Shown here: positions 3,634 to 40,697 of the stretch, one piece after another | Layout: every line of letters begins with the position of its first letter | How positions within the stretch are numbered: the stretch's first letter is position 1 | The notes under the pieces: generated by a model | Told to the model about the DNA's origin: nothing | The model's database searches: none | Seen by the model: only the letters and a program-made list of their open reading frames with translations | Translations under genes and position numbers: made by a program | NCBI GenBank assembly: GCA_015179125.1 | Contig: WHVA01000034.1 | Span: 186,001 to 250,000, forward strand | Reading direction: 5' to 3' | Source of the DNA: Gautieria morchelliformis | Lineage: Eukaryota > Basidiomycota > Agaricomycetes > Gomphales > Gomphaceae | Length of the DNA: 64,000 nucleotides

Positions 3634-4078
3634 GATGGTGGTAGAGGTGATGACTCTGGTTCCGAGCATAATTCCGACCCTGATGTAGCAGGCCCAAGAC
3701 CTAATCCCAGCCCAAATGCAGCAGCAAACGGTGAGGAACAGATTGGGAAAATGCTTGCGGCTTTGGAAAAACTCACCATCAATGGACTTGGTGGTGGAGA
3801 TGGGAATGACTCAAAAGTGAAACTCCAGGAACCTGACCAGTTTGATGGCTTGGACCCGAAAAAACTCTGAGGATTTCTTCTCCAGTGCACATTGAATTTC
3901 CATGCCAAATCCCAAGCTGTCCGAGATGGTTCTATGAAAGTGAACTATGTTTTGTCCTTCCTCAAGGGAACAGCTCTAGACTATTTTGATCCCTACCTTG
4001 CACATGACCCTGCCAACAAACCCGCATGGGCTTTGGATTATACGGGATTCACAGAAGAGCTCTATTTGAACTTCGGCC
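3634..4078 (+). pseudogene. Ty3/gypsy gag, N-terminal part, truncated
   Basis: The frame encodes an acidic/Asn-rich N-terminus, then the retrotransposon gag signature KLQEPDQFDGLDPKKL, an in-frame TGA at 3868-3870, and LLQCTLNFHAK...LSFLKGTALDYFDPYL...FTEELYLNFG. The order matches the Ty3/gypsy gag capsid region, so the stop most simply derives from CGA (Arg). The frame is already open at a TTG at 3616 inside the LTR, but no ATG start is visible before residue 50 or so. The protein is cut at 4078 by the LTR end of a second element (family C) lying in the opposite orientation. Confidence 0.75.
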
Positions 4079-4276
4079 TGTAAGGACAACCCTAGCTGGC
4101 TGTGGAGATCACACTACCACACAACTGACAAGGGGAAATCCGAAGAATGTATAAATGAACAGAGTATACAATAAAGGGGATTCTTACCTGACAAGGGGAA
4201 ATCCAAAGAGAAAAGTCTAAGGACCCCCAATGTCAGCGAGCCCATATTATACTACGCTTCGCAGCCAGGGACAACA
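4079..4276 (-). repeat. LTR of chromovirus C (198 bp), copy 1
   Basis: The block runs TGTAAGGACAACCC ... CCAGGGACAACA and is exactly as long (198 bp) as the copy at 26935-27132. Inside it are two direct repeats of CTGACAAGGGGAAATCC about 54 bp apart. The adjacent frame on the minus strand is the end of a chromodomain integrase, which makes this the 3' LTR of a minus-strand element inserted into the gag of family P. Confidence 0.65.
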
Positions 4277-5048
4277 CTTGGCACTCGCCATCGACCCTGC
4301 ATCCCCCTGACCTCCCTGACCCTTGATCGACCCTTGATGCCACCTATTACGCGAGTCGCTTGACTTCCGACACTGTTCTGAGAACAGAAGTTGGAAAGTG
4401 GAGTGGAATTGGCAAAGCAAACAGAGCTGGTGGAAGTTCTCCCAGAAGCGGAATCATTGCCGGAAGCGGAGTTGGAGATGGAATCGGAACCGGAGTTGGA
4501 AATGGAGTCAGAACTTGGTGTGGTGTCAGAACTGGAAAACAGGGTGTCCCCTGACATCACCCCCCCTCTAGCATGCTGCGTCCTCGAAGCATGGGACACA
4601 ATGGATTGAACGGCCAGTGAACGGATTCGGTGAGGGGCACCAGGGTGTGTCTTATAGAATTTGCGGAGTTTGTCTGGAGCAGAGACATCTTGCTCTGGGA
4701 CCCACGAATTCTCCTCGTACCCATACCCTTCCCATTTCACGAGGAATTGGAGTCGTCCTCGCACAAACCGGCTGTCCAGGATCCGTTCCACCACATAGTG
4801 CTCTTCCCCATCTACAATTTCCGGGGAGGTGGCGGACGAGCCTTCTGACCTGGAATTGGGTCCTCAAGCACAGGGAGCAACTTCACTACATTGAAGACAG
4901 GGTGGAGGCGGGACATGGAGTTTGGAAGTCGGAGGTGGTACATGTTCCGTCCAACCCTCCACATCACTGTGAAGGGCCCAAGGTAGTGGTGGGCAAGCTT
5001 CTGCGAAGGGCGTGTGGTGCGGATGTCACTTGCGGATGTAACATTCAA
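4252..5048 (-). pseudogene. Chromovirus C pol 3' end: integrase C-terminus and chromodomain
   Basis: Two minus-strand frames (5048-4812 and 4794-4252) give an integrase C-terminal segment (RPSQKLAHHYLGPF, RLHPVFNVVKLLPV) followed by a chromodomain (VERILDSRF, LQFLVKWEGYGYEENSWVP). The chromodomain aromatic and acidic residues (W..Y..ENSW) are intact; it would normally steer integration to methylated histone H3 chromatin. A Ser/Asn/Asp-rich tail with imperfect repeats follows and runs into the LTR. A frame break separates the two parts near 4800. The 5' side is lost at about 5036, where an L-family LTR fragment begins, so only the last 250 or so residues of pol remain. Confidence 0.8.
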
Positions 5049-5830: not shown

Positions 5831-8541
5831 CAAGGCTGGGCTGGCAAGCCAAATCACTGCCCCGGAGATCACCCCTGACCAGCCCCCACCAGGGCCTCAT
5901 GGCACAGATGGCTAGCCCCCCCATCCCATCCTTCATGGGCCCAAGCAAGCCACCAGCATCGATAGATGACATCCCTGACGGCTTCTACTCGGATGACCCG
6001 GATCTAAAACATTATGATCCAGACCGCCCACAGCACATCTCAAAATAGAGATGTGCATGAGGTTATGACAAACTCATAACCTACGACCCCCTCGGTGACA
6101 TACGCAACTGTGTCACCCAGGAGTACCTGGCACAGTTGCCGAGTTGGGCAATCGATGACACGGGACTGGGGCAGGCGCTGGTATGTCGCAGCCAAGCAGG
6201 AGAGGGCCAGACAGAAGGTCCTCCGGCCTGCACCATCGGTGTCATTGCCCCCACCGGCAATGACAGTTCCTAACCCTCTCTAGGGGAAGGGGAGCTCATG
6301 CCTCTCGGGGACCCACCATTCACCATAATGGGCCACCTACCATGGCCCATCAGAAAAAGAATGCAGCAACAGGCCAAATGGTTCAGCCTCTGCGACACCA
6401 AGGAGCAGAGGTTGCGGGACCTCCTGAAGGAGGCTAATATCAAGATTGGTTTTTAGGCATTAATATCGTGTATTAGTGAACACAGCGAATGCCCGAATAA
6501 CTTGTGCAAATAAGTATGCTGTCTGGCGAATAGGGTGAACCAATAAATGTTCACAAAATAAGAGGGCTTCCCGAACGGAGCTCGCCCTATCTACAGTCGT
6601 AGCGAAATAGCCCATGGCACTTGACTATGTAACGTGCAAGGTGTCACGGAAGGGTTGTCTAAGTAGTGACAATCCCTTCGCCGACAGCACAGAAAATAGT
6701 TCGAAGGCTAAGTTAATGAAGACGAAGTATGAGAACTCACCAGTGATGCCTAAGTCCTCTTCTGGTCGAAGATAGAAATCTACAGGAGAAGGATCAAGAC
6801 AATAGGTCACAGCGAGGTCAAGTTTGCACAAGATGGACGTATGATAATTGAACTGGGGAATATACATGCCAATGTAAACTACTTATATCGAACGCTCGTA
6901 AGGTATCAGCGAATGGGAAAGAGGCCATCATGAGTCAGGGTTGGATAGGGGTGCGCAGTCATGATACAAAATAGATGAAATAAACATACAATAGAGTGAG
7001 GGAGGAGGGCGAACATGAAACGATGGAGAGTAAAGGAGGCGGAGGCACCTATGTACGAAACCATGTCTTGGGACTGCATATATGCTACCCTGCACGGACT
7101 CTTCGTCTACTGGGTTGATCCCACACAACCTATGGGCAGGACATCCCGTGAACGCATCCTGGCCATATGAACACCTAAAGGGGTTGGATCAAGAAGCTGA
7201 TGGAGCCAGTGACGAGCCATCATGCCGGGTAGGGGATGTTGATCGTGTTTGATGGCATGCCTGCTGGCGAATGATGTGAGCAGCCACGAATGGTTGTTCG
7301 GTGAAATGCCGTGAAGGGTGAATAGAATGATCATCAAAGAGCTGTGGCCCAAGGGGAGGGCGAAGCCACACGAACATAGAGGAGGACTGGGGAAATGGAT
7401 AATAAGGCTAACTGGGTACAGGAAATAAATGAGTTGCACCATCTGATCAGAGGAGCATCTGACAGGGTTTGAGCCAGGGAGGTGAGGGGACCCATGATGG
7501 ACCATCGAGCCAAGGAGAAGGCGTTGATCGGGTACAGGTAGCGCTGCTACGTGCGAATGACACGAAGGCAAATAAACGTTCGGTGCATTCGGCGAGGAGC
7601 GAACAGGGAGAACGTAAAAGTGGGGTGTCGAGGTTACTGGGTATACAAATAGACGGGTCATGACAGCTAAAGAGATGCCATCGAGCTCCCACACGCGCGG
7701 GATGGCTACCGCACTGAAACAGGCGTGGGATGAGGCTCGGACCAGCAGCCAATGGTCAGGCTACTTCCTCATCGGCAAAGGAACCGCTGAGGATATTCGG
7801 GACGTGCTCCAGGGCTGGTTGTGAAACCCTGAAGGCATCCTGCCGGCCATCCGTGATGAACCAGATGGCAATTGAACATCCATGGCATGGATGTATGGAT
7901 GTGGATGAGGAGGCTTGTTCCAAAAAACACCAAGCCTCCCTCCCCCCTCTGATCGCGAATGCACGATCTGTTCTGCGTCACTGACCAATGGCAGGACCTC
8001 GTACCAGCCAACAAGGTCCGATACACCATCGGTGACACCCTGAGGGCGTCGATCACCAGCATATTCCCCATCCAAGGTTGATCAGCCCAGGACATCCCTG
8101 TGGACAAGGTTGCCCGCTGGCTCGCCAAGCACGGGGGAGTAACCTGGGACAGCATACCCCAGATTGAATCATTCATCCAGTGCGAGCTGACGAGGGCCAC
8201 CTTCAATGCACCTGTCCAGATAGGGCAGGAGAGGCTGCAGGTGGCGGCCCTGTGGGACCGTGACCAAGCAGTATCCATGACTGCCATGGCCTCAATGGTC
8301 GCCCAAGCATGGCTAGACCTCGAGCTAGCCGTGACTCAAGGCCCATCACCAGCCAGCGACCTTTCAACAGGACGTGGGCATCGACTCCCCGCCCCAGGTC
8401 CTTGCCGATGGCCCGGGTCTTCCGACAGACCCACGATCACCACCAGCCCCGTACTCTGACATTCATATGTCAGATGTGGACTCCAATGACCTCACCAGGT
8501 CCCTCTATGAGGATACCTGAGTTGTTCATAGAAGGGGAGGG
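5831..8541 (+). pseudogene. ORF3 of gypsy family M, second copy, split by an L LTR
   Basis: Two pieces (5831-6437 and 7671-8460) align with the minus-strand ORF3 at 27352-29114. Piece 1 shares YDPDRPQHIS with YNPDRAQHIA and LGDPPFTIMGHLPWPI with LGDLPISEMGLLPWPV. Piece 2 shares DIRDVLQGW..NPEGILPAIRD with DIAAILRGWIHNPEGIPSAIRD and VARWLAKHGGVTWDSIPQIESF with IARWLAHYTGVTHERVARIEHY. Several stops and frameshifts are present, so it is dead. The L LTR between the pieces is flanked by GCTAA. A purine tract (GAAGGGGAGGG, 8531-8541) sits right before the M LTR, the layout expected at the 3' end of an LTR element. The function is unknown. Confidence 0.7.
6438..7665 (-). mobile_element. Solo LTR of family L (1,228 bp) with GCTAA duplication
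   Basis: On the plus strand it begins TATCAAGATTGG (other copies have TGTCAAGATTGG, so one G-to-A change) and ends GGGTCATGACA. The flanking 5-mers are identical: GCTAA at 6433-6437 and at 7666-7670. It has the full-length L structure with a partial internal duplication (two starts of the ATTCGC-rich segment, near 7437 and 7665). The insertion splits ORF3 of a gypsy M copy. Confidence 0.85.
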
Positions 8542-8817
8542 TGTAAATACCCTATTTACCCACATTGCCCTTAAGGCAATGTGCGCTGCTGGAATAGATT
8601 AGCTAATGTTAGTGGATCCCTATGGATACACTGTATAGTTCTTGTGTGGGAACCGCATGGGCGGTTCGCCCGATAATCTTACCTTACACTCTCACTACAT
8701 AGCACATGGAATAACCACACATTGGTCGAGTTCCATTTGCCCTTGTGATACAAGGACCTAAGATCCACTCACTTACAGGCCCTCGTGTTGCGCCTCCCTA
8801 ATATTAATAATATAACA
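8542..8817 (+). repeat. LTR of gypsy family M (3' copy, right border approximate)
   Basis: It starts TGTAAATACCC immediately after the purine tract at 8531-8541. Its body (CACTGTATAGTT, GTGTGGGAACCG, TTGCCCTTGTGATA) matches the reverse complement of 39610-39859, the segment upstream of the M gag. The right end is guessed at TAATATAACA (8817) from the loss of similarity and a CA terminus. Confidence 0.6.
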
Positions 8818-9284
8818 TGCCCTGTATTAATTCTTGACCAGGAACACGAAAAATCTGGTGTACCATGAAGGAGTGCTCATGTATACACCCAAATACAGAC
8901 GTCTCAGTAGATATATCGTCCGAGAGGGCATCAGACCAGTGATGTTCTTGAATTCTCGTCCGAATCAGTGCAGTGGCTATATTAGCGATCACTCATCCTA
9001 GATCCACTGATGGACTCCTTATAGATGGATGAGAGTCAGAGATTCATGCGAGGTCCCACAGAAGCACACCTAGGCTTGATGGTGAAGGCACGGCAGTGAG
9101 TCGTAACTCTGTACATTTTCTAAAGATCATTGTTTAAACCTGGGGGACTCTGAGTCCAGCTATTTAATTACAGTACAAGCCACGACCCGTATCACATAAC
9201 TTGTCACTTGAGGAGTCAGTGGTTGGAGTTGAGCCACGACATCGTGCACAGGAAACTCAATTACAGTGGTGCCTATACATAACT

Positions 9285-14443: not shown

Positions 14444-16069
14444 CTATACAGAACCTCGTGCCGATTCCACAGTTAGTCCAGATGGCAGCGCCACTCTGAA
14501 ATGTCCTATTCCCGAGTCCGGGACTCTCTCAGTTTCTGGAAGATAGATACGTTCACGCATGTTGAGTATAAGTCGACAACCCAATGAGCATGGGAGGGCA
14601 ACTGCCCATCTGCAAATAAGGTGTTCGTATACGGAGCCAGTACTATGTCGAATCCTGACACACCTGATAGTAACCTCGAGGAAATTTTGAGGGGCCAAGG
14701 CCCAAACCACGCAATTTAGGAGCAAACTGGCAAACACGCTGCAGACCTGGTTCAAGTAACCTCATATATATCAAGGCGACCTAGTGCTTACGTTAAAAAT
14801 ACAGTACACTGGGCTATATTAGTCTCTCTATCCACACAAATGGAGGGTCGGAACACACCTATCACGTATAATCAGGCGTAGCAGCGATGAGCTCCGGCTG
14901 TTCTTATACGTTGTCCAAGCCTTGTACAGCATCAACAGACACAGAATACTTTCACAGATGATTGCCGGGACCCAGGTAAGGAAGTATAGTGGTGGCTGGG
15001 GACCAACGTAGCAACCCGTTGATATCCCCTTAGGCCTAGGCATACCTGGAGGGGTCAGTCAGAAAATAACTGCAGTGGAAATGCCATAAGTATAGACCTT
15101 GTGGCAAGCCCGTATCTACAACAGCAAGAGTGCCAGCAAATTCGGCAACAAATAGTATGCCAAACAATACTAGCAATCTTCTATTGCGCTCATAAACAGC
15201 GTATATCTGTGTGGGGTGTATTGTTGTAAGAGAATGCCAGATAAATGAAGCATAGAGAAGTTACGTACGCGAGTCATTAGGATAACTGCACATCAAATAT
15301 CAACATTGCAACATCATGCCAGACTTGTACTTACGTTGCGCGGTAACTATAGCGATAACCTCTCTGTAGACAATTCATGAAAAGCAACTGAAGACCAAAA
15401 ATTGCTCCCTGGACTTACGATGTCGTTTCCACCCAGTGAAAAACGCTGCAGCTGCCGATCGAGGATCCGTGAGTAAAGAGTCGTCATACGGCAGCAGTGG
15501 AGACATACAACTGCGAAGACATCAGTGGCCCATTTGTATAATATGTCGATACGAGCACACCTTCAACGAAACAGAAGGAATTGTGTACACTTTTCGAAGG
15601 GATTAAAAATCGGACAGTTTTGACAACAGCGATTGCACCTAATATGCCCGAGATAAGGGCAAATGGTCCAAAATAGCGGTTCTAGGAAAGGAGCCATCAG
15701 CCTCTCCCTGGACCAGCTGAGAATGTGCGAAGTTCTACAAAAAGGAATAACACTTTTCCAAACATCCAACCGGGATATTTCCATACAAGTTCTACCTGCG
15801 TATAATTCAGTATGAGTTCGATGACTGTCTTCTGGTCGTGACTGACGTACCTCGGCGTCAAAGGTGAGAACTTGTATCATAGTTAGTCGTCTTGCTCGGG
15901 ATTAGCTGCAAAGAATTTCACCATGATCATACAAAAGAAAGGCAAGAGAGGCAAAAGCGGAAGAGTCGACAATCCGTTCTGCGTGTACGCGGCGATTAGT
16001 TACATCATTCAAACATTAGTACCCAGCTCGGCCACCTGAGGATACCAGTGTCGCGAGGCTGAAATCCAT
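14444..16069 (-). pseudogene. DUF6533-like integral membrane protein, copy 3
   Basis: Begins MDFSLATLVSSG (16069), then IVDSSAFASLAFLLYDHGEIL followed by an extra T (TTCTTTGCAGC versus TTCTTGCAGC in copy 1) that breaks the frame. Later exons include GCYVGPQPPLYFLTWVP, ESILCLLMLYKAWTTYKN, SSLLRLIIRD and a C-terminus LGCRLILNMRERIYLPE. The upstream leader contains a local duplication near 16115-16220 (CTCGCTGGCGGATCTCCAATATATG, then CATTCGCTGGCATATCTCC). I judge it more decayed than copy 2. Confidence 0.5.
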
Positions 16070-25159: not shown

Positions 25160-26433
25160 TGTCATGACATGTTTATTTCCCATACTCAGATGCCCTGTTT
25201 TCCCATTTCTCACTCCACCTCCGTGTTTGTTCTGATCGCCCTCGCCGTGTTCGGCAACCGATCCTCACTGTTCGCACCATTTACCATAGCCACGCCGTCA
25301 AAAGCATGATCAACTTCTTTGGACTGACTTGGCAGTCATCGCTGAGCCTATCACCTCCTCTGCTTAAACCCTCTTTCGATGATGTTCCTATGATCGGATT
25401 GTCATGACATGTATATTTCCTACACCTTGTTACCCCCATTTCCCCTTTTGCCACTTCTCTTCCGTGTTCACTCGGCTTCGCCCTCCACCTCGACCACTCC
25501 TGCCCTATGTCATCTCCGTTGGCCCTTCCTCACATTTCGCTGAACAGCCACTCGCTGCTCGCATCATTCGCCAGCAGGCACACCATCAAATCACGATCAA
25601 TATCCCTACCTGGCATGATGGCTCGTCAGTAGCTCCATCAGCTTCTCAGTCCAACCCCCTTTTGGTGTTCATGTGAGCAGGGTGCACTCGTGGGATGTCC
25701 TACCCGTAGGTCATGTGGGATCAACCCAGTAGGTGAAGAACCCGTGCAGGGCGGTGTATATGCGGGCCCCAAGACATGATTTCATACATAGGTGCCTTCG
25801 CCACCTTTACTCTCCGTCGTTTCATGTTCGTACTCTTCTCTCACTCTATTGTATGTTTATTCCATCTACTTAGTATCATTACTGCGCACCCCTATCCAAC
25901 CCTGACTCACGACGGCCTCTTTCCCATTCGCTGATACATTACGAGCATTCGATATAAGTAGTTTACATTTGCATGTATATTCCCCAGTTCAATTATCGTA
26001 CGTCGCCCATCTTGTGCAAACTTGACCTTGCTGTGATCATCATCTTAAGCCTTCTCTTGGAGATCTCTATCTTCAACCAGCAGAGGACTTAGGCATCACT
26101 GGTGAGTTCTCATACTTCATCTTCGTTACCTTAGCCTTCGAACTATTTTCTGTGCTGTTGGCGAAGGGCTCCGAAGGAGCACCTTCGCCGGCGAAGGGAT
26201 TGTTGCTACTTAGACAGCCCTTCCGTGACACCTTGCACGTTGTATCGTCAAGTGCCACGGGCCATTTCGCTACAACTGTAGATAGGGTGAGCCCCGTTCA
26301 GGCAACCCTCCTATCTTGTGAACATTCATTGGTTCACGTATTCGCCGAACGGCATACTTATTTGCACAAGTCATTCAGGCATTCGCTTTGTTCACTAATA
26401 CACAATATTAACGCCTAAAAACCAATCTTGACA
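25160..26433 (+). mobile_element. Solo LTR of family L (1,274 bp) with CAGTA duplication
   Basis: Runs TGTCATGACATG ... CCAATCTTGACA. Identical 5-mers flank it (CAGTA, 25155-25159 and 26434-26438). A second TGTCATGACATG at 25401 starts a partial internal repeat of about 245 bp, as in the other full copies. It contains a TATA-like GATATAAGTAG near 25950, a GGTGAGTTC donor-like site at 26101 and two hairpins at 26167-26197. Removing it restores a continuous copia frame, so it is younger than that element. Confidence 0.9.
26167..26197 (+). promoter_or_regulatory. Twin hairpins in the L LTR leader
   Basis: GGCTCCGAAGGAGC (stem GCTCC/GGAGC, loop GAA) is followed by the perfect palindrome CCTTCGCCGGCGAAGG. 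Counterparts occur at about 37326-37353, 40436-40462 and 49138-49168, partly eroded. Being downstream of the TATA-like box, they would lie in the transcript leader; a role as RNA structure or as a protein-binding site is inference. Confidence 0.5.
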
Positions 26434-26934
26434 CAGTACAGGAACTTGCCGGAAATGTGAGTCTGCACTCCTCATCCCCACATTCCTCCAATAGTGATGC
26501 TGATCTATGCTGGAACACAGACACAGGAGCCACTATCCATGTGACCCCACATCATCTGGCTTTGAAACTACAAACCCTATCATGTGCCCATCCACCTCAC
26601 AACCAATGAGATTGTGTACTCAGCTGGAAGGGGCAGGTCTTATTTACTCCCATTATAAATGGAAAGCCAGCACAAGATATCATCTTGTCACAAGTCTTAC
26701 ATGTACCCATGCTCCAAAATAATCTACTTGTGGTCCTTCGCCTTACCACACATCATGGTTTTGTCCTCAATATTGTAAAAAATCACATTTCCTTCATGAA
26801 AGATGTAAATCTGCATTTTTGTGCCACAGTACAAAGTGGAATGGGCTTCCTTACTGGGGACATGATTCCAATCTCAGAGTTCACCCTAATGACCTCACTG
26901 CTAGCTGTGGACCGATTGTTATTACACAAACAAC

Positions 26935-27343
26935 TGTAAGGGCAACCCTAGCTGGTTGTGGGGCTCACACTACCACACAACTGACAAGGGGAAATCCGAA
27001 GTATATATAAATGAACTGAGTATACAAGAGAGGGGATTCTCACCTGACAAGGGGAAATCCGAAGAGAAAAGTCTAAGGACCCCCAATGTGAGCAAGCCCG
27101 TATTATACTACGCTCTGCAGCCAGGGACAACACTCAGCACTTGCCATCAACCCTGCATCCCCCTGACCTCCCTGACCCTTGATCGACCCTTGATGCCACC
27201 TACTACATGAGCCACTTGACTTACAACACTGTTCCAAGAGCGGAAGTTGGAAATTGAAGCAGAACTGGAAGTGGAGTCAAAAATGGACTTGGAACTTGGC
27301 ATGGTGTTGGAACTGGAAAACAGGGTGTTCCCTGACAATGACT
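26935..27343 (-). pseudogene. Chromovirus C, copy 2: LTR (26935-27132) and polyprotein tail
   Basis: The LTR matches 4079-4276 in sequence and length (198 bp) with the same pair of GGGGAAATCC repeats. The adjoining minus-strand frame (27338-27147) repeats the Ser-rich tail of the chromodomain protein (SGNTLFSSSNTMPSS, VVGGIKGRSRVREVRGMQG). No chromodomain remains. On its left it breaks copia protease; on its right it meets ORF3 of gypsy M without a visible target-site duplication. Confidence 0.7.
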
Positions 27344-27351
27344 AGCACACA

Positions 27352-29150
27352 TCAGATTGGCATGTTTGGAGAAGCTCCTAGCAACCGTATGGTTGGGTGA
27401 GGTGGCACTACCTCACCACTGGTGGAGGCTTCCGCTTGGTTGGCGAGGCTGGTGTCCTCGCAGAGCATGGCCTTGACGGCCAGGTCATCGGCCTGGGGAG
27501 GAGGCCAGAAGCATGCCAGCTCTTGATTGAGATGAGCATGAGTAAGTGGTCGTGGCACCACGGCCCTCACGTGGCTGGTCTCGAGGACCTTTTGTTGGCC
27601 CTCCCGTGCAGCGGCACTGAATGCCGCACCGGTGAGGCTGCGTTGAACATAATGTTCAATGCGTGCCACTCGTTCGTGAGTGACGCCGGTGTAGTGGGCC
27701 AGCCATCGTGCGATCTCGGCAAGCGGGATGTCAGAGCCAGCTTGGCCTCCCACGGGATATGGACCCGTGATGGATAACCGCAGGCTGGTGCTCTGCGGTG
27801 TCAGGCATTCCCTGGCATCGACGAAGCTCGACCATTGATCGGTCAAGCTGAACAAGGCGAAGAGTCTCGACTTGAGAGGTGATGCAACCCCCTTAACTCG
27901 GGGTGCGAGGGCCTTCAACCACATCCAGATGTCCATGTCATCTATGTTGAAGGATCCATCTGCATTGTCACGGATGGCAGAAGGGATTCCTTCGGGGTTG
28001 TGTATCCAACCCCTTAGGATGGCAGCGATGTCATGCCGGGTATCCTTATCACGAGACAATCCCATTTGGGATTGCGAGTGTGCTGCTTGCACTCGATGCA
28101 CTTGAACATGCCGATCATCTCGCGTGTGCGCAAGAATTGCGGCATGTCTTTTGTGTGCGCTAGGAGCTCAACAAAGCGTGGGTTGTTGAGTGGGAAGACG
28201 TTGTACCATTGAGTACGACGCTGCTGTGCCTTTCCTACTGGCCATGGTAGGAGGCCCATCTCGGAGATCGGCAGGTCTCCGAGTGGTATGATCACTCCCT
28301 CCCCCGGGTAAGGATGGTGAACTGTCTCCACCGGTGGCAGCAGGACCACGTGAGGGCCGATGTACTGGGCCTCAACCAATGCTACCTGCCATTGTAGGGC
28401 AGGGTCATTGATTGTGTGTGACGGTGACACCGCCAGGTATGTGCTGATCACGCTTTCCCTCGCAATGGCCAGACCATTGACCGTGTTGGGGGTGCTGCGC
28501 AATTTCTTGCACTTCTTCTTTGGCTGCTCAGCTATATGCTGAGCCCTGTCCGGATTGTACGTCTTCCAGACGGAGGAGTCAGACTCCCATCCGTCTAGGA
28601 TGTTGTACATAGCGTTGGATGGTGCACTCCGCCCCTCTGTTGATGTCGGGGTGGGCGCCGATATTCGGGAGGCCAGTCCTGAGGCTGCGCGTGCTGGCAA
28701 GGGTGCTGTCACATGAGGTGATGAGGGCTCGGCCACTGGGTCTGTGGCCGGGTCATGGTGCGGCCTTTTTGAGGCAGCATGTGTGAGTTGGAGCAAATTC
28801 AGCTGCTCCTCGAGCTCTTTTACTTTGGCGCACTCAGGTTCGAGCGCGTCGTCACGGTCTTTGACCATGTGTTCCAAGTCCTTGACCTCCTTTTTGAGGT
28901 CATGGATGTCCCGCAGGGGCTCCACTCACGCATCATGCACGATGCCCCTCGGGAGCCATCCCCAGGCCATATCGACAGCATCGCCAATGTCCTCATCCCA
29001 CAGTTTCACCTTGCAGGTGCCTGTCGTGGCCCATAAGTGCATGGCGTAAGTCGCGCAGGTGTCGCAGTCGTCCAGGTGGAGGATTGCCAGAGCATCTTCC
29101 CATCCTACGATCATCCAGTTTTCTTGGTCTACTGGAGCTCATAGGATGTT
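27352..29150 (-). pseudogene. ORF3 of gypsy M: conserved protein of unknown function after the chromodomain
   Basis: The reading runs 29114-28928 (WEDALAILHLDDCDTCATYAMHLW...KLWDEDIGDAVDMAWGWL), a TGA at 28926-28928 most simply from CGA, then 28925-28014 in the same frame, and after a frameshift near 28050 the frame 28101-27352. Layout: a small Cys/Trp-rich N-terminal region, a coiled-coil heptad-like stretch (DLKKEVKDLEHMVKDRDDALEPECAKVKELEEQLNLL), a Pro/Ser linker, a globular core (YNPDRAQHI ... PLGDLPISEMGLLPWPVGKAQQRR), a CxxC pair (FKCIECKQ) and a helical C-terminal part (WMWLKALAPR, FALFSLTDQW, IARWLAHYTGVTHERVARIEHYVQ). Total length is about 600 residues. I do not recognise the family; it has no visible signal peptide or membrane segment, so a classical env role is not supported. 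A homologue occurs at 5.8-8.5 kb, also next to an M LTR. Confidence 0.7.
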
Positions 29151-29350
29151 GGTGACCCCTTGTCTTGGGGCCGTTGCTTGTGTCGCGGATGTTGACCGAT
29201 CAACATCTATCCCATCTTTGGGGAGCATCATCTTCATGGGGAGATGATGGTGGTTGGTTCCAAGAAGTGATGCGCCTTCAGAAAGATCCAAGGCGAAAAT
29301 TTAACCATGCCGAGGCCGGCACGTCACGTGGTGTGCACGTGACAGACGCG

Positions 29351-29590
29351 TTAGAGGTGGCATGGCTTGCCCAGCCCCCAGAGCTCTAGATAGCTATCTA
29401 GAGCTTCAAGATTCTTGCACGATGACATAGGCTCCTATCTAGAGCTTCAAGATTCTTGCACGATGACATAGGCTCCCATGTCACATCGCCTAGGGTCCAG
29501 CGGACCTGGAACTCCAGGTCCGTTGAGTTTATCCATCAATGTGCGATAATCTCGTCGATGAGCCACTCCTCGTCGTCATTCGCTCCGAAG
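29351..29590 (-). pseudogene. Chromodomain at the end of gypsy M pol, broken by a 41-bp tandem duplication
   Basis: The minus strand reads EEWLIDEIIAH, then DLEFQVRWTLGDVTWEPMSSCKNLEALD, the layout of a fungal chromovirus chromodomain. A 41-bp segment is duplicated in tandem (29394-29434 and 29435-29475), which shifts the frame; skipping one copy gives YLELWGLGKPCHL and a stop at 29351-29353. A stop also lies after EIIAH. Chromodomains bind modified histone H3 and guide integration. Confidence 0.65.
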
Positions 29591-29639
29591 TCATAAATGA
29601 CTCCACCTCACGACAAGGGAACAATTCATCGTTGTTAGC

Positions 29640-29900
29640 CTTGTATCATCGTACGAGGCTTGAATGGAAGACTGTACGTTTTCGTTAGGTGTGGCGCACT
29701 TTCGGTAGGTGCGACTTCCGAGGGTCAGCATGCTTTCAATAGGCGTGGCTTTCAATGAAACTTGAGCTTTCGGTAGGCGTGGCGCACTTTCGGTAGGTGC
29801 AACTTCCAGGTCGGTTTAACATGCTTTCAATAGGTGTGTCTTTTGATGACTAAGCACTCTTTGATTAGGTACGACTTGGTAGGCGGTTGTCAATGTTGAT
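29640..29900. repeat. Imperfect tandem repeats in the integrase-chromodomain linker
   Basis: Units such as GCTTTCGGTAGGCGTGGCGCACTTTCGGTAGGTGCGACTTCC and CATGCTTTCAATAGGYGTG alternate four to five times. They fall between the integrase C-terminal domain and the chromodomain of gypsy M, in a region expected to be a flexible linker. Confidence 0.55.
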
Positions 29901-30039: not shown

Positions 30040-31204
30040 TAACAAAGCCCGGTGATATACAACGGCTTTTCAGCTTGTCGGGAAGCTCAAGGGTTACCGT
30101 CAAGGCGTCGTTATGCGCCTCGATGACGCAGTATGGTCCGATGTACCGCAGGATGAGTTTTCTGGCTCTTCCTTTCGGTAGAGTCAGGTTTTGGGTCGAG
30201 AGGTAGACGTGGTCGTTGGCCGCGTACCTGGAGCTCGCTGTACGTTCTTGTTTGCATGAAACGTTTGCGTCACTCGATGCTCAATGATTGCATCGTGTGC
30301 CGCCATCATGTTCCATCTGGCCTGATGTGTGAACCGGGCTACCCCCTTAAACGGGGTGTCTGCGGCTATGGGGAGATCCATCTGCGGCATATAGCCGTGA
30401 TTCAGCTCAAAGGGGGCGAACCCTGTGGTTGCGCTGATGTTGCTGTTGAGGGCGACCTCAACCATTGGGAATTTCAATGCCCAATCCTTCTGATCGTCTC
30501 TGATGACCGCGCGTAATATCTGCCCGATCGAGCGGTTTGCCTGCTCAGTGGCTCCATCCGTTTGGTGATGGAAGGCAGTCGACATGAAGAGCTTAGTCCC
30601 CATGAGTCGCTGTAGTTCACGCAAGAATATCAACATGAACTTCGAGTCTCTACCTGAGACGATGGAGTCAGGGACTCCATGGAGTCAAACGATTTCTTTC
30701 AGAAACAGCCAGGCTACTAGTACCCTTAGCTGACACGCTCGTCATGGTTGGGACGAGGTGGACGTGCAATGTTAGTTGGTCGACGACTACCATCAGGTAG
30801 TCACAGTCGTTAGATTTGGGCAGGGGCCCCATGAAGTTGATGCCAATCGACTGCCACAGCCTATCCGGAATGGGTAGGCTGTGTAGTAAGCCTTTGGGCC
30901 GTTGTGGCCTGGTTTTCATCATCTAGCACTTCACGCATGATGTGCAGAATGACTCAATGTCCGGGCTCATGCCTGGCCACCAATATGACCTTTGAATGTA
31001 GTTCAATGTCTTCAGATGGCCGTAGTGACTGACTATCTGGTGTGCTCGATCAATGATTATTTCAATCAGCATCCTTCCCCCCTGAGGAACAGATCGGGGG
31101 ACAGCGATGACGTCTTGTTTGAGCTGATTCTTTGTCCAAATCAGCCCGTCCTGGATTCCGAATCTCGGGTGCATATCCGAGTGCTCCATGATCTTTGAGA
31201 ACAT
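30040..31204 (-). pseudogene. Gypsy M integrase
   Basis: Frames at 31204-30923, 30922-30668 and 30636-30184 give, in order, the HHCC zinc-binding part (RAHQIVSHYGHL ... YWWPGMSPDIESFCTSCVKC), the first catalytic Asp (YLMVVVDQL), the second block, which reads SGRDSKF instead of the usual SDRDSKF, the Glu block (HHQTDGATEQANRSIG), and then a C-terminal domain (DHVYLSTQNLTLPKGRARKLILRYIGPY). The Asp-to-Gly change removes the second catalytic residue (near 30645). A TAG at 30920-30922 most simply derives from CAG, and there are frameshifts near 30680, 30640 and 30190. The enzyme would insert cDNA into the genome if intact. Confidence 0.85.
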
Positions 31205-33201
31205 GGTGTCCCTATGGTATGCATCTCATAAGACCTTGGACAGGTCTACACCTTGTTCAATGCTCCGGCGCAGGAGCGCGCCATTGTTACCTGCAGCAAT
31301 GACTCTGACATCATCGTCATCATCCTCGCGTGATGCGGCGCCTTTCATGGGCTTTTGTGAGCCCTCATTTAATGCAGCAGATTCCATTATCTGCGCCTCT
31401 GTCTTCTCTGCAAGGTGGTTAGACCGTCTCGTTGCTGCTGTTCACAGCTCGATATACCGGTCGGTGGGCAGTGGTTCACCTTCCAGGTCTAAACGCGCAT
31501 CTGCATTTACAAAGACATGGTCCGGGTGATTGTCATCACTCATGTCACTCTCATAGTAGTGCGACAGGCAGTCTGCTACCTTGTTCTCTACACCGTCAAC
31601 ATGTACGGTGTTGAAGTTGAAACGGGACAGGAACTCCCACCATCTGACCTGGTGGTCAGATAGGCTCTTCTGGGTCTCGAAGTATTCAAGTCCCTTCTGG
31701 TCTGTGACAAGGGTGAACCTTCATCCCAGTAGTTTATCCTCCCATTTCATGAGAGCCTCAAGCACGGCAATTGTCTCGTGCTCGTGAGTCCGGTAGTGTT
31801 GCTGAGCAACACTGAACTTCTTTGACAAGAAGCCGGCTGGCCGACAGGTTTTCTTTTGGATTAAGATGTTAATTAGTGCCTTTCAACGAATAGAATATAT
31901 TGCTCAGTGACTGGAGCCACTGTGTTCGCCCCTCTTCTATGTGCTGACTAAGCCTTTCGAGGCGCGTCCAGCACTGATGAATGAGAGTCATGTGACCGTG
32001 TCGACAGAAGAATGGTGTCGATCCAAGGGATAACCAAATCAAAAGCGTTCGCTTTTAAGGTAGTATAGAGTAAACAGTGATAGTAGACCCTCAACGAAGA
32101 TTTGGAATAAACTATCAAGATCTGAGCTCTGTATCTATCAAACAAGACTACAGGAATTTCAGGAGGCAGAAATAATCGATTCTGGGTGATTTCGTTCATA
32201 CATTCGTACTAGCTATTTATACTATATTAGTAGTAACTACCAGTACTCAAGATATTGGACAGATGGGTCGAAAAGCTGTTTGTAACTAAGGGGTGACTAA
32301 TTTATAGTCATAAAGTCATGGGGTGATGGGGATGGTGTTAGGATTGTCTGGGCTTTGGAATAGAGATCTGTACCTAGTATACAAAGCCCCTGTCCACATG
32401 ATGTTAAGATAGTAGTCAGTCAGACATGTCATGGGGTTCAAATAAAAAAATGGAGCTGAGTTTACCCTGCCCAGCATATATGCTGGGCTTGGAGATGGGG
32501 CCACTGTCTCTGTGCCCTTTCTGTGGGGCAGCTAATTGAGTATGTGTACTGCGGATGACATTCTCAGGTCGCTCCACAGCACCCTATATTCCTGTGCAGT
32601 CTATTGTCCTCTGCGGTGTTTGGTGCCCGCACCCATCGGTGCCTACGACCTGGCGCCTGTCGACATCATGGCCGATGCCATCACTCGATAGGCGCGCCGT
32701 CCCTGATCGACCGCACGTGGTCGATGCCCGAACTCCTGTACATTACCCGATCTATGGGTAATATAGCATGTCGTAAATTCATATGATCGTCGTCTGTGCC
32801 GACGTCTATCATAAATGTCATTTCTGTTTCTTTTTGATCTTTTTCTTTTTCTTTCTTTATTAGTTTCTTTTATATATAAATGATTTGAAATGGGATAGTT
32901 GCGTTTATCACAACATTTTCCAGTCGGGGCCTTGGCAGTAGACGGCACTGACGCTGGCCTTTGACACGTCGGTGATCACCCAGATTGGCTCTGGGCACCG
33001 TGCGTCTATTGGATGCAGGATCGGGGCCTTACAGGCCAACACCTTAATACTTTGCCAGCATTTGTCTAGTAGTGGGGTCCATTCGAATGGATGGTTGTTA
33101 CGCGCGCAGCCCGATAACGGTGTCGTGTATGCGCTAACTGTTATTGGATGAGGAAGGACAGTTTCAATCAGGACAATCTCACTTCTCATTTCTGTTATCA
33201 C
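31190..33201 (-). pseudogene. Gypsy M RNase H and linker, split by a 1,062-bp insertion
   Basis: The segment 33201-32921 reads NNHPFEWTPLLDKCWQSIK..PILHPIDARCPEPIWVITDVSKASVSAVYCQGPDW, the start of the RNase H (TDVSK carries the first catalytic Asp). After skipping 31854-32915 plus one TTTTC it continues K-TCRPAGFLSKKFSVAQQHYRTHEHETIAVLEALMKWEDKLL, then TLVTDQKGLEYF and VRWWEFLSRFNF. Continuity across the insertion is exact. Stops occur near 31720 and 31440. Confidence 0.8.
31854..32915. mobile_element. 1,062-bp insertion in gypsy M flanked by TTTTC
   Basis: Removing this block and one of the two TTTTC copies (31849-31853, 32916-32920) restores the RNase H frame. On the minus strand it begins TGTTGTGATAAACGC and ends AATCCAAAA; the second end lacks a CA, so it is not a clean LTR. 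It has no clear coding region. It may be a solo LTR with a mutated end or another non-autonomous insert. The left part near 31960-32200 has a weak minus frame (83 codons) I do not recognise. Confidence 0.6.
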
Positions 33202-33766: not shown

Positions 33767-35433
33767 ATGTAATGTGCCAGGTACTATACTAACCCGAGGA
33801 AACACTGGACGTTGTTGAACGTCCACAGCCTGTGCCACTCGCAGATGCATCCTCATCAGCATGTACCAGGGCTGTCCACGAATCAACCTGCAGGTTACCT
33901 GGACTTGGACTCGCAGGTTTGCCAGCTTCCAGAACTGGAACCTGGACTTGACCTGAGTTTTTCTGCAGGTTGACTTGGACCCGCAGGTTAAACCTGCGGG
34001 TGACTTGTGGTGACTTGCTGGATTATTCTGAGCTGACTCACCCCAGGCGAGTGCATGATGCGTCTCCTCCTGTGGGGACAGCCCTCCTCCATGGAAAGAC
34101 ACCACCCAGGTCCCTGGCCAGGTGCAGATCATATGAACAGACACCGGGTCACATGGTCTGTTCAGACTTGCAAGTCTGCACAACCGATGGCCCTACATAG
34201 GTCAATCAGTGGGTAGAAATGCTGCCACATCGGTGTGGAGGAACGGGCATACTCACAGATCACCTGAGAGCTGCAAGTTCTCTAATGGTTCATGTTTTTT
34301 TTTCTGTGTTTCAGGTCTCTATTCAATTGTCTAGTAGTCAAGGAAGTCAACCCTGTAATCCATTGCGGAGGAACTGGCATACTTGCAAATACCTGAGATG
34401 ACTGACTTCTCTACTCCAGAAGGAGATAATAGTAGTGAATGTCATGTAAATGACATGAATTCTTGGCATTTAAGGCTTGCAGGTCTGCGAGTCACCTGCG
34501 GAATTCCAAAGGCCAAACCTGGACTTGGCAGGTTTTTAGGCGCCGGGTCACCTGGACTTGTGGGAGTTGGATCTGCAGGTTAAAATCACAGGTTGAACTG
34601 CGAGTCACCTGCAGGAACCTGGACTCATGGACAGCCCTGGCATGTACTGGCCATCGATGATGTGGCCGAGGCACTCCATTTGGATGGAATAGAGATCAAC
34701 CTTCTTCTTGCTCAGAAAAAGGTGGCTCTTCCTCAGTCTGTCAAAGACAAGATAGAGGTGCTCCTCGTGCTCTCATGTCGAGAGCGAGAAAATGAATATG
34801 TCGTCCATGTAGACATGGACGAAGCGACCTATGCAGTTGTGGAAAATGGCTGTCATCAGCCATTGGAATGTCGATGGGGTGTTACAGTCTCCCATCTGTA
34901 TCACTTGGCTCCTAAATGTGCCAAGGATCATGGCAAAGGCAGTCTTTGCTATGTGATCCGGATGAATCCGGATCTGCTCGTATGCTTTGGACATATCGAG
35001 TTTCGTGCAATATCGACAGCAAGCCATGTCGCTGTGGATGATATCCTGATCTGGGAAGGGCGTAATGTCCTTCACCGTGCTCTCGTTCTGCTGGCGCAGA
35101 TTGAAAACGGTACGTAGTGTACCGTTCTTCTTCGGCATGCACAGCATGGGTACAGCTTGCTGTGCGACTGCCGGGATCCACCACTTTGCAGTGGGTGTAG
35201 TGTTCTATTTTTGCAGACAGTTCCTCTCGGAAATGTTCGGGGCACTTCAGTAGTCGATACCGCATGTGTTTGTTGGGATCGATGAGACTGATATCGTGGT
35301 TGATCTCCCGCAGTGGCGGGAGTTCTAATGGAATCCCACTGACTAGGTCAGTGATCCTTTCCATCCATTCCTCACAGAGGCGAGGGATGTTGTCATCCGT
35401 GAGGATGACAGTGGTGGTTGGCTTAGAAGCCAT
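33767..35433 (-). pseudogene. Gypsy M reverse transcriptase
   Basis: Frames 35433-34912 and 35147-34773 give PLREINHDISLIDP (RT start), PCTHAV-type thumb motif region, KKNGTLRTVFNLRQQNESTVKDITPFPDQD, CTKLDMSKAYEQIRI (first catalytic Asp), and FVHVYMDDIFIF with the two catalytic Asp of YMDD intact (near 34800). After the hAT MITE (33867-34639) the frame continues LGHIIDGQYM, then FLGLV.YLAHYMP, the RT thumb. Frameshifts occur near 35130 and 33850, and there is a TAG near 33790. RT copies element RNA to cDNA in Gag particles. Confidence 0.85.
33867..34639. mobile_element. hAT-like non-autonomous element (773 bp), 8-bp duplication
   Basis: Exact 12-bp terminal inverted repeats CAGGGCTGTCCA and TGGACAGCCCTG bound the element, and the 8 bases outside are identical: GCATGTAC at 33859-33866 and 34640-34647. 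Subterminal regions hold many copies of CCTGCAGGT / ACCTGGACTTG in both orientations, as in hAT elements. No transposase frame is present. It interrupts the RT of gypsy M, and removing it restores ECLGHIIDGQYM-like continuity. Confidence 0.9.
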
Positions 35434-36325: not shown

Positions 36326-37585
36326 TGTCACAACCCATTCATTCTTGTATCCAGCTATCCCTGTTTTCCCTTTCACCACCACTCTTCCATGTTTGCTCGG
36401 ATTCGCTCCATTCACCCTGTGCTCCATTCACTATTCGCCACATTCGCCAAATGACCATTCGCTACTCGCATCATTCGCCAGTAGCCATGCCATCAAACAC
36501 AATCGACATCCTTTACCTGGATTGATGGTTCATCACTGGTCCTATCATGAATTGCAAGGAGGTGCAGCTGTCATGACTCATTTATTTCTTGTACCCAGCT
36601 ATCCCTGTTTTCCCTTTCACCACTCTTCCATGTTCGCTCGTCTTCACTCCATTCACCCCTCGCTCCATTCGCTCCTCACTCCATTCGCTATTCGCCACAT
36701 TCGCCATATGACCATTCACTACTCGTATCATTCGCCAGCAGGCACACCATCAAACACGATCGACATCCTTTACCCAGATTGATGGTTCATCACTGGTCCC
36801 AACATCTTCTCAACTCAACCCCTTTGGGTGTTCCTATGGCCAGAATGCATTCGCGGGGCATCCTACCCGTAGGTCATGTGGGATCAACCCAGCAGACAAA
36901 GAGTCTGTGCAGGGTTGTGTATATGCAGGTCCCAAGGCGTGTTTTCGTACATAGGGGCCTTCGCCCTCTTTCCTCTCCGTCGTTTCATGTTCGCACCCCT
37001 CTTCCATTCTATTGTATGTCTATTTCATCTATTATGTATCCTGACTGTGCACCCCTATCCAACCCTGACTCCAGACGGCCTCTTTCCTATTCGCTAGCAC
37101 CATATGAGCATTCGGTATAAGTAGTCTACATTTGCATGTATATTCTGCAGTTCAATTATCATACGTCCATCTTGTGCAAACTTGACCTCACTGTGATCAT
37201 CGTCTTGAGCCTTCTCCTGTAGATTTCTATCTTCGACCAGAAGAGGATTAGGCATCACTGGTGATTTCTCATACTTCATCTTTGTTACCTTAGCCTTCGA
37301 GTTATTTTTGTGCTGTCAGCAAAGGGCTCCAAAGGAGCACCTTCGCCGGCGAAGGGATTGTGCTACTTAGACAACCTTTCCGTGACACCTTGCACGTTAC
37401 ATCGTCAAGTGCCATGGGCTATTTTGCTATGGCTGTAGATCAGGGCGAATTCCTTTCGAGTAACCCTCTTACTTTTAACCCTTACCTCTTCGGTACTGTT
37501 TGCTGGGCGATTCACTAGATCGCACACGCTATTCGGGCATTCGCCACTAACATGCGATATTAATGCCCAAAATCCAATCTTGACA
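36326..37585 (+). mobile_element. LTR of family L (1,260 bp) inside gypsy M, no matching duplication
   Basis: Starts TGTCACAACCC and ends CCAATCTTGACA. A second start TGTCATGACTC at 36571 marks the internal repeat, as in other full copies. Flanks are ACAGT (left) and GCCGC (right), so a duplication is absent; a deletion or recombination next to the insertion is likely. It sits between gag and protease of gypsy M. TATA-like GGTATAAGTAG is near 37116 and the twin hairpins at 37326-37353. Confidence 0.75.
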
Positions 37586-37593
37586 GCCGCGTC

Positions 37594-39558
37594 CTATGCT
37601 TGCTTCGGTGGTGATACACCAGCTCGGGCCTTGTCTGGCATGACCAACATGCGTGCCGCCATGACTTTTGTGGCGGCATTGTCTTCCGGTGCGATTCTGA
37701 TCACGCTAGACCTGTAGGCAGTGTCTTCTGCTCTTCGTCCCTTCATAGTACTGGGACGGCTCCGGATCCCACTCTTCAGCAGGCGTGTCTCCGTTGTCCG
37801 GAGATTCATTGGGTTGGGGATCACCCTCCCCCTCTTCATCAATCTGATGAAGAGAATTTTTGACCGAGGTCCGCCTCTGGGTCCTCAGTATCATCATTGT
37901 GCCTCATGGCGCTGTCCTTATACCAGACCTAAGCCTGGGGCACTCCCCTTCTTGTGGCCAGGTTGGCCACATTCAAAGCATGTAGTGCTGCTTTGGCTGC
38001 CGCTGGGCTGATCGTTAGGCCAGCCCAACACTTTGTTGTGTGGAGCAGGTCGTGGAGATGACCCTGACGCTTGAGGCTGTTTAGCTTCAGGCAGGCATCC
38101 AGCTTGCGCTGGGCGTGGGGGTGGCGGTCACTGCGACGCTCCACTTCTCGAGAACAGGCTAGGCCTGGTCAGGCCCGTCTGTGTCACCGCTTGCTCCCTG
38201 TAAGCTGGGCTGCGCTTGCTGTTGCCGCTGCGCTTTCTGCACGGCGGGCAGGCTGTTGTATGCCCTGACGGGCCCAGGCCCGGGTCGGGCTTGGGATCGG
38301 GAGCATTTTGTGCTCTCGAGTCCGGGGGCTCTTGTGCCTGGTGTCCCCCATCAGTCACATGTTGCGGATCCACAGCCTGCTGTTGTAGGCTGCACGTGCT
38401 TGTCGTGCGTCCTGCACGGCTCATGTGAGCTGTTTGTTGGGCTCTGAGCGGTGTGGCTCTGGGCTACTGCTTCCTCAGCGTTCTTCACCAGCAGCTTGAG
38501 GGCCCGCATATGGCGGTGCATGGCTGCGGCCTCTTTTTGCTGCCAGTGTGCGACTTTGAGCTCTAGGCTCTCTGTCGTCGCTTCAGAGTCAGGCTCTGAG
38601 GCGACCTGCTCTCTGACGATCTGTTGGATCATCTTGGGGTGTCCATTGGGGCAGCCGGTTTCTCTTGGGGTTCATTTCTGAACTGCATGTCCTGTTTGAC
38701 CGGGATGGCTGGCGGCGGCATTCACTGCCTGTCCAGTTCCTTTTGTCACGGGTCTTCCGTGTCGTGACCGCGTTCACTAGCTGCGGACTGTCACGAGCTT
38801 GACATGGTACTTCATGTTCCCACGTGAATGGAGGGCCATCTGGACATTCTCCAGCGTGGCCATGTCTTGCAGCCTGATCTCCTCAGCTTGGTGGAGTTCC
38901 TTGCCGATCTCCATGATGGCGGCGGCAATGTTGTCAAGCTGCGATGCTAGTTGATCGTGCTTGTGGCCCGTGAGGGCACTCTGGTGCAGCGCACCCTGCA
39001 CCTGCTTGTTCATTGCCTCCGCCATCTAGTTGTCGACAGCGTGAGTTCTCGAGCTCTTGTGACTTGAGCTCAAATATTCTGAGCCCTGACCATCATCTGG
39101 GGCTTGCGCTTTTTGCCTTCGTCCTCCTTTGGGGATGATCATCGTCGCTCTGCTTCGTGAGCGGCGGTTCGAGTCATGGCTTTGTGCCTGCCTCGATGTT
39201 GATGCTCTTCCATCTGATGATGGTGAGACCTCTTTGCCTTTTCCTTTGTCTCTGGGCAGAGGGGATTGGGGGGCAGCGCTGGCTTGTTGCCTGGTGACAT
39301 CTCGTATCTCGTCCTCGACCACGCTTGGCAAGACATGGTCGGGGTTTTCCTCGTCCCTATTGGGGGGACGAGGGCGGTGAGGTGTATGATCTCTCCGTCT
39401 TCTGGCATCCTGGATTCTTGGTCCAGGGTCGCATCAGCCGTTGTGTCACTGGGCTGCACCTGTGGCGTGGACTGCGAGCTCGACGCTCGTGTCCGTCTTC
39501 GACTGCGTGGAATAATCACGCTCACAGCCAACAGTAGAGAGTCTACTGGAGGTATCAA
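37594..39558 (-). pseudogene. Gypsy M gag with CCHC zinc knuckle
   Basis: Overlapping minus-strand frames (39558-39139, 39331-39026, 39025-38777, 38632-38351, 38424-38128 and 38144-37929) form a basic, Ser/Gln-rich protein with a helical stretch (KQVQGALHQSALTGHKHDQLASQLDNIAAAIMEIGKELHQAEEIR). Near 37939-37980 a zinc knuckle CFECGQPGHKKG occurs; the last Cys is recovered only in another frame (one G missing). At least five frame breaks are visible. It would package RNA into virus-like particles. Confidence 0.65.
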
Positions 39559-39562
39559 CGAT

Positions 39563-39859
39563 GTTTAGTCGTTGACGCAGCGATCTTTTTCAAGATTGCT
39601 TCAGTTGGTGACATGGGGATCAACCGCAGGATAGTTCAAAAAGGTGTAAAGATGACGATCTTAAACCCTGTTATCACAAGGGCAGACAGAACTTGACCAA
39701 TGAGTGGTATTCTGGATGCTACGTAGTGACAGGTAAAGGTAAGATGCGATGGGGACTGCTGACCGGTTCCCACACATAAACTATACAGTGGGTCCCTAAG
39801 GGGCCCACTGGGATTAGGTAATAACTAGTGTACATACATGAGTACATAGGTTATTTACA
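39563..39859 (-). repeat. 5' LTR of gypsy M (inner border approximate)
   Basis: On the minus strand it starts TGTAAATAACCTATG (39859) and shares CCCACTGTATAGTTTATGTGTGGGAACCGG and CTGCCCTTGTGATA with 8542-8817. The inner end is taken at CTAAACA just before the gag frame. To its right, without a gap, continues a truncated L LTR, showing that M inserted into L. Confidence 0.6.
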
Positions 39860-40697
39860 GCATGCCATACAAACATGATCGACATCCTTTACCCAGCATG
39901 ATGGTTCATCACTTGTCCCATCATCTTCCCGACTCAACCCCCTTTGGGTGTTCCTATGGCCGGGATGCATTCGTGGGACATCTGACCTGTAGATCATGTG
40001 GGATCAACCCAGCAGACCAAGAGTCCGTGCAGGGGAACATGTATGCGTGTTTTCCTATATAGGTACCTTCATCCTCTCTCCCTCCATTGTTTCATGTTTG
40101 CACTCCTCCCTTCTTCCAATGTATATGTGTTTCACCTATTTGTATCCTGACTGCACACCCCTATCCAACCCTGACTCAAGACAGCCTCTTTCCTATTCGC
40201 TAACATCATATGAGCATTCAGTATAAGTAGTTTATATTCACATGTATATCCCCAGTTCAATTATCATATGTCTATCTTGTGCAAAACCTGACCTCACTGT
40301 GACCATCATCTTGAGCCCTCTTCTATAGACTCCTATCTTAGACCAGAGGAGGACTTAAGCACCACTGGCGAGTTTTTGTACTTCACCTTCATTACCTTAG
40401 CCTTCATACTATTATCGGTGCTGTCGGCGAAGGGTTCCGAAGGAGCACCTTCGCCAGCGAAAGGATTGTTACCAATAGACAACCTTTCTGTGAGATCTTC
40501 AATGTTACATCGTCAAGTGTCATGGGTTATTATGCTACAACTGTAGATAGGGCGAGCCCTGTTGGCAGCCATCTTACCTTCTAAACATTTATTCACGCAT
40601 CTTATTCACCGAACTACACACTTCGTTGTACAAGCCATTCGGGCATTCGCTGTGTTCACTAATACGTGATATTAATGCCTAAAATCCACTCTTGACA
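39860..40697 (+). repeat. LTR family L, 3' part, host of the gypsy M insertion
   Basis: Matches L from CATGCCATACAAAC to CCACTCTTGACA (40697). The missing 5' part would have continued beyond the other end of gypsy M. TATA-like AGTATAAGTAG near 40222 and the eroded palindrome CCTTCGCCAGCGAAAGG at 40446 are present. Confidence 0.7.

Follow-up and report, generated by a model that had tools for sequence, protein, structure and literature searches.

ORF3, a selected third gene between pol and the 3′ LTR in a Ty3/gypsy retrotransposon lineage of Gautieria morchelliformis

A third gene in a Ty3/gypsy lineage

A large lineage of Ty3/gypsy LTR retrotransposons in the genome of Gautieria morchelliformis, characterized by a divergent, chromodomain-like end of pol, possesses an integral third gene that is maintained by selection. 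This gene, named ORF3, regularly occupies the space from the pol tail to the 3′ LTR, and its product is probably a helper protein that serves the element. In general, gag and pol are held to be sufficient for LTR retrotransposons. Since a third gene is here kept in many copies and in two lineages, under a constraint close to that acting on the pol tail, something more than gag and pol appears to be needed by these elements. A third ORF at this place is a feature of a known kind, and the protein family encoded by ORF3 matches nothing in the libraries searched.

The analysis started from a window of 64,000 nucleotides of contig WHVA01000034.1, in which a first-pass annotation had proposed the order LTR-gag-pol-ORF3-LTR at two loci. 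The first locus belongs to a damaged Ty3/gypsy LTR retrotransposon on the minus strand, called M; the second, at 5.8-8.5 kb, is assigned by its sequence to a second lineage and constitutes a family of its own. The proposed order is real genome-wide and in both lineages, but each of the two window copies shows only half of it, and therefore the whole order rests on other loci.

Position of ORF3 across the genome

The genome searched comprises 122 Mb in 1113 contigs. A search with ORF3 provided at least 130 scored homologues among 1592 first-look candidates, with 70-81% identity besides the window's own copy. In particular, 30 loci found in this way (L009-L038, including that of the window) were inspected together with flanks of 1.5 kb, or less if the contig ends earlier. 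The pol tail is located upstream of ORF3 in 28 of them, being clear in 27 and a remnant in L020, and is absent in L024 and L032. The downstream side was examined in 33 loci: 30 places of the ORF3 search, each represented by a single record, together with L039, L041 and, from the second lineage, L073. Among the 27 copies that reach residue 650 or beyond, an LTR begins 25-53 nt after ORF3 in all except L034.

The same arrangement is observed when the element is approached from pol. A search with the pol tail scored 150 places among 1522 candidates, and in the best 30 of these (L043-L072) ORF3 lies close behind the pol tail 26 times. Two further loci, L061 and L072, contain foreign sequence within the linker that separates pol from ORF3, and ORF3 continues beyond the insertion. 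In the remaining two, L058 and L059, the resemblance to M ends within the linker, and ORF3 was not found in 3.5 kb and 1.5 kb, respectively; as they are 99.6% identical over 3435 bases, they represent a single event. Four duplicate records (L010, L031, L043 and L057) were dropped from later counts and are still contained in these two lists of 30. The first-pass annotation had pointed to M elements lacking ORF3 as the observation that would weigh against its proposal, and among the loci examined no M copy was seen with an LTR directly after the pol tail. M belongs with those LTR retrotransposons that have an extra ORF behind pol, ahead of the 3′ LTR, in most of their copies.

Selection on ORF3 and common descent with pol

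ORF3 is under purifying selection, for which the first-pass annotation had proposed a test (dN/dS well below 1). The ratio calculated over 49 copies (1176 pairs, which are not independent because the copies are related) is 0.23, with a median dN of 0.108 and a median dS of 0.462, while reading the same ORF3 DNA in the two shifted frames yields 1.08 and 1.38. Stop codons occur 0.22 times per 100 codons in frame versus 3.79 and 2.99 times out of frame. The constraint spans the full length of the protein, ranging from 0.13 to 0.41 over ten windows and being weakest at the C-terminus, and it is comparable to that on the pol tail of the same element, for which 52 copies give a dN/dS of 0.21. These sets include copies with at least 350 codons of ORF3 or at least 100 codons of the pol tail and leave out L073; dead copies raise the ratio rather than lower it. 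An earlier value of 0.27, obtained on codon maps that may slip out of frame in broken copies, was replaced by 0.23.

ORF3 and pol also share their descent. On a nucleotide map, pairwise distances in pol and in ORF3 are correlated with r 0.95 (378 pairs from 28 copies with enough of both regions). Recombination between pol and ORF3 was considered and rejected on the same map, because a distant ORF3 is found in none of 147 pairs with close pol. Correlations calculated on codon maps, which may slip frame in broken copies, are weak (r 0.55, -0.20 and 0.33, the last of which was reached by 14 of 2000 permutations).

The second lineage

A search with a C-terminal piece of the second-lineage ORF3 scored 150 places of 856 candidates; identity is 46-72% in many of them, and M copies rank further down among the matches, at 30-45%. 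The organization of this lineage is exemplified by L073, in which integrase, pol tail, ORF3 (with one stop) and LTR follow each other as in M. At the amino-acid level L073 and M share 76.8% identity in the pol tail and 37.4% in ORF3; hence ORF3 diverges much faster than the pol tail while its place is kept. The Pfam Chromo profile finds no match in the pol end of L073 at an E value of 0.1. A possibility is that the loss of a standard chromodomain and the gain of ORF3 may be connected.

The linker and the separate expression of ORF3

The short linker between the pol stop and the ORF3 start is characterized by sequence elements that recur in most copies. Specifically, CACGTG is present in 44 of 48 linkers, and twice in 22 of them, the TATA-like run TTAAATTTT in 43, and the exact hairpin CCTCGGATCTTTCCGAGG in 29. 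In the block that starts with TTAAATTTT, M and L073 agree in 57 of 64 columns (60 of 68 in a count by hand), compared with 35 of 55 in the linker before the block, 136 of 179 for the pol tail and 108 of 153 for the start of ORF3. Allowing up to one mismatch, the block pattern occurs 574 times genome-wide and its reversed version not once. Predicted RNA folds of four linker sequences are more stable than those of shuffled ones, with z from -1.9 to -4.7, but in the set compared (43 distinct of 56 found) the candidate hairpin is frequently disrupted by single changes, often at CpG.

The presence of a conserved block with CACGTG, TATA-like run and hairpins just before the ATG suggests that ORF3 is expressed separately from pol. 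The stretch that precedes the ATG measures 29, 30, 31, 33 or 36 nt in 44 loci, and a fusion of pol and ORF3 by frameshifting was rejected because this length varies by 1-2 nt between copies. We infer that the block would combine a putative core promoter, its upstream sites and a short leader. Alternatively, it might function as an RNA element for re-initiation or packaging. The use of a splice acceptor, as for env, appears less likely, because the candidate CCTCCCCAG, located near the pol stop in most M linkers, is absent from L073.

Foreign inserts are present in the 120-nt linker of L013, L061 and L072. By count, linkers contain 2 inserts in 6.6 kb plus that of L061, ORF3 contains 5 in 86.6 kb and pol 1 in 49 kb, all few events, in a count for which chaining failed for L040. 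Perhaps such inserts favour promoter-like DNA, though the numbers are small.

Features of the ORF3 protein

The reference protein, P0001, is that of L039 and counts 660 residues. Its N-terminal region carries the motif HWMIVGWED and is followed by a coiled coil at about residues 100-150, a segment enriched in Pro, Ser, Thr and Ala (about 155-225), the basic run PKKKRKKLR, and finally two conserved regions in which the motifs PYPGEG, GWIHNPEGIPSAIRD and DVWMWLKAL are found. A basic run resembling QPKKKRKK is present in 38 of the 39 copies matching the motif expression used, and it shrinks to KKR in the second lineage. The pI of ORF3 proteins is 5.1-5.9. Some M copies have lost the middle of ORF3 and kept both ends, as in L044 (about residues 233-568), L069 (about 70-561) and L072/L076 (about 182-590).

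Searches of Pfam, NCBIfam and PDB, with the protein alone and as a profile, returned coiled-coil noise or nothing, and no relatives were found in the viral and prokaryotic contigs of IMG/VR and GTDB. Structure prediction of the two window ORF3 pieces, carried out without an alignment, reached pLDDT values of just 35.4 and 40.8.

Known systems with a third ORF

Among the systems considered, the best precedent by analogy would be Cer1, a Ty3-family element of Caenorhabditis elegans, in which a large ORF between pol and the 3′ LTR contributes to CERV, a nuclear protein required for the export of genomic RNA, according to the available text of PMC10309623. The likeness is one of described features: for CERV these are a candidate leucine zipper and the nuclear localization signal (NLS) KRKK (PMC10309623), to be compared with the coiled coil and basic run of ORF3, a run that is weaker in the second lineage. 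Moreover, both proteins are fast-diverging, CERV being described there as without obvious homology outside nematodes. As differences, the ORF of Cer1 supplies just the C-terminal half of a protein whose spliced mRNA also includes gag sequence, CERV has a cysteine-rich region, and Cer1 is a nematode element (same source, in part).

As far as the accessible part of PMC7264820 goes, the ORFs reported there lie at the same place and on the same strand, are kept in most copies and have no known role, as is the case for ORF3, but several of them have membrane segments, which ORF3 lacks. LTR elements of bdelloid rotifers contain family-specific third ORFs at the same place, some of them with coiled coils; however, in the portion of PMC5408684 consulted several of these are recognisable enzymes or env, including a GDSL esterase and a DEDDy exonuclease, whereas ORF3 matches nothing. 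A figure legend of PMC2864245 marks an ‘add. ORF’ of unknown function in fungal chromodomain Gypsy elements, which is possibly the same thing as ORF3, element class and label being what the two have in common in that legend. No additional ORF is named in the available parts of two other fungal surveys (PMC3248453; PMC3411680). Among the open papers listed by the literature searches, no title or beginning of an abstract describes the ORF3 protein.

VANDAL elements are DNA transposons, unlike M. Their VANC proteins in Arabidopsis are anti-silencing factors and, as self-encoded nuclear accessory proteins acting on the element's own copies, they illustrate one of the roles that might be proposed for ORF3; the targets of VANC form tandem repeats in noncoding regions (PMC10398659, available text).

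Possible function of ORF3

The fixed place, the own start, the putative promoter, the coiled coil, the basic run, the fast divergence and the lack of a membrane part point to a nuclear accessory factor rather than to an env protein. That the ORF3 product is such a factor, similar to CERV in its way of working, is the reading we tentatively prefer, with slightly less than an even chance of being right. According to this model, ORF3 would be translated from its own ATG on a separate mRNA, most likely transcribed from an internal promoter in the 120-nt linker. As weaker inferences, its product might self-associate through the coiled coil and might act in the nucleus on the RNA or chromatin of the element itself, with export, packaging, integration and escape from silencing as candidate roles. 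Its likeness to CERV of Cer1 would be one of mode of action, not of descent. A broader proposal, which we regard as rather doubtful, is that ORF3 could represent a new family of retrotransposon-encoded nuclear regulators, in which the internally promoted third gene of an intracellular Ty3/gypsy lineage would target the RNA or chromatin of the element itself and would have aided its spread to hundreds of copies. Foamy viruses, with their internally promoted transactivator gene, offer a parallel in principle.

The coiled coil would also suit a second structural protein of the virus-like particle, capsid- or matrix-like and made from its own mRNA, whose coiled coil and helices would form the particle or line it. 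The C-terminal piece is mostly helix in a model of low confidence (pLDDT 35), a weak indication, and ORF3 diverges faster than pol, which is usual for gag as stated in the accessible part of PMC2864245. However, at E values of 1 to 10 the Pfam matches of ORF3 include no gag or capsid family, the element already has a separate gag region, and a basic NLS-like run would not be expected in such a protein, so that a structural role seems unlikely.

Host-like ORFs are known at this position in rotifer elements (PMC5408684, in part), and ORF3 might be a captured host gene that keeps its cellular job, for example as a chromatin or RNA-binding protein, for the benefit of the element. Such an origin is distinctly unlikely in our opinion, given that no recognisable domain is found in ORF3 and that the split into two lineages would make any capture old; one lone host homologue within this genome might be masked by the at least 130 scored ORF3 places.

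The location between pol and the 3′ LTR is that of env, and an env-like or cell-to-cell transfer protein has to be weighed for this reason. As noted already in the first reading of the sequence, no signal peptide or membrane helix is apparent, and hydropathy bears this out: the 19-residue mean peaks at 1.06 across three M copies and at 0.59 for L073, the best 11-residue mean within the first 35 residues of M copies is 0.43, and by this measure ORF3 shows neither the signal peptide nor the membrane segment by which an env protein was to be recognised. An env-like role is thus very improbable. Finally, a passenger gene or transposon inserted beside the window copies, which the window taken alone would allow (M has no 3′ LTR there and the second copy no pol), can for practical purposes be dismissed, because the fixed order with constant spacing to pol and LTR, the constraint, the correlation of 0.95 with pol and the second lineage identify ORF3 as a gene of the element.

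For work on what such extra genes do, this one genome supplies a wealth of natural variants, a compact promoter candidate and, in G2, a sister family in which the gene is lacking. In addition, ORF3 would explain the repeated lineage-specific ‘hypothetical proteins’ in the annotations of such genomes.

Element M, its dead ORF3 and other repeats of the window

The features recognized in the window are collected in Table 1. Two loci outside the window served as the main references: L039, and L040, in which a pair of LTRs (402-615 and 7711-7926, 92.6% identical) encloses the ORFs.

Table 1. Position of element M, of the second ORF3 copy and of G2-family sequences in the window
Feature	Position	Strand	Basis
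5′ LTR of M	39639..39862	-	88-90% identity to both L040 LTRs
gag region of M	37586..39638	-	81% identity to the L040 stretch directly behind the 5′ LTR
Reverse transcriptase piece of M (PF00078)	34776..35204	-	51.1 bits, cut-off 29.6
Integrase region of M	30045..31421	-	85% identity to L039 pol region; SH3_Tf2-1 31.3 bits, cut-off 30
pol end of M, divergent chromodomain-like tail	29435..29672	-	90% identity to L039
Linker from pol stop to ORF3 of M, with CACGTG, TTAAATTTT and hairpin block	29232..29351	-	84% identity to L039 linker
ORF3 of M, residues 1 to about 618 of about 660	27397..29231	-	tblastn with P0001, 72.8% and 77.2% identity
G2-family LTR at the break of M ORF3	26934..27337	-	77.8-89.3% identity to G2 LTR 4556-4078
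Second-lineage ORF3 copy	5848..8511	+	50-65% identity to L073 ORF3, 30-43% to M ORF3
Purine tract behind the second ORF3 copy	8530..8541	+	read from sequence
3′ LTR of the second-lineage copy	8542..8777	+	83% identity to L073 LTR; TG...CA ends
G2 gypsy element, control	4078..4863	-	Chromo 61.5 bits; LTR 4556-4078

M is interrupted at several points by other sequence. Its protease-reverse transcriptase region starts at 36039 on the minus strand, protease and RNase H being recognized by eye only, and reverse transcriptase precedes integrase, which is the order of Ty3. The gag region corresponds to an L040 reading in which, as tested, Pfam finds no domains. The first-pass annotation had let pol end in a chromodomain at 29351, followed about 200 bp later by an ORF at 27352-29150. 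The pol stop at about 29351 stands, but the chromodomain-like tail is divergent and remains below the Pfam cut-off of 25.1 bits (15.8 bits for the pol tail of L039, 18.3 for that of L040). The linker to the ORF3 start is in fact 120 nt long and the ORF had been drawn too narrow at its start, as the ATG lies at 29231; from there ORF3 can be aligned down to 27397. This copy is dead, having two in-frame stops, one frameshift and no 3′ end, and it breaks off where the G2-family LTR begins (27337). No 3′ LTR of M was found within the window, in which LTR matches are limited to 39862-39639 and the surroundings of 8.6 kb.

The homologue formerly placed as a clear one at 5831-8541 is real, and a purine tract and an LTR come after it; it consists, however, of broken pieces (about 5848-6438 and 7657-8511) with internal stops and other repeats between them, and it has neither an N-terminus nor an adjacent pol. 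G2 differs from both elements, since its canonical chromodomain is followed directly by purine tract and LTR, with no ORF3 between. A colinear G2 flank was looked for beside the LTR at 26934-27337 and was not found. G2-like LTRs also occur inside the ORF3 of L034 and of L061/L074 and in the pol-ORF3 linker of L013.

A family of repeats of about 0.7 kb, present at 25597-26337, 36719-37480, 39870-40700 and 48571-49295 and inverted near 5.0-5.7 and 6.4-7.3 kb, interrupts both M and the second ORF3 copy; comparison of the LTRs ruled out that these repeats are the LTRs of M. The plus strand from 8945 to 15984 is occupied by three direct repeats of about 2.5-2.7 kb, near 9.2, 11.9 and 14.4 kb, which are 60-90% alike in pieces.
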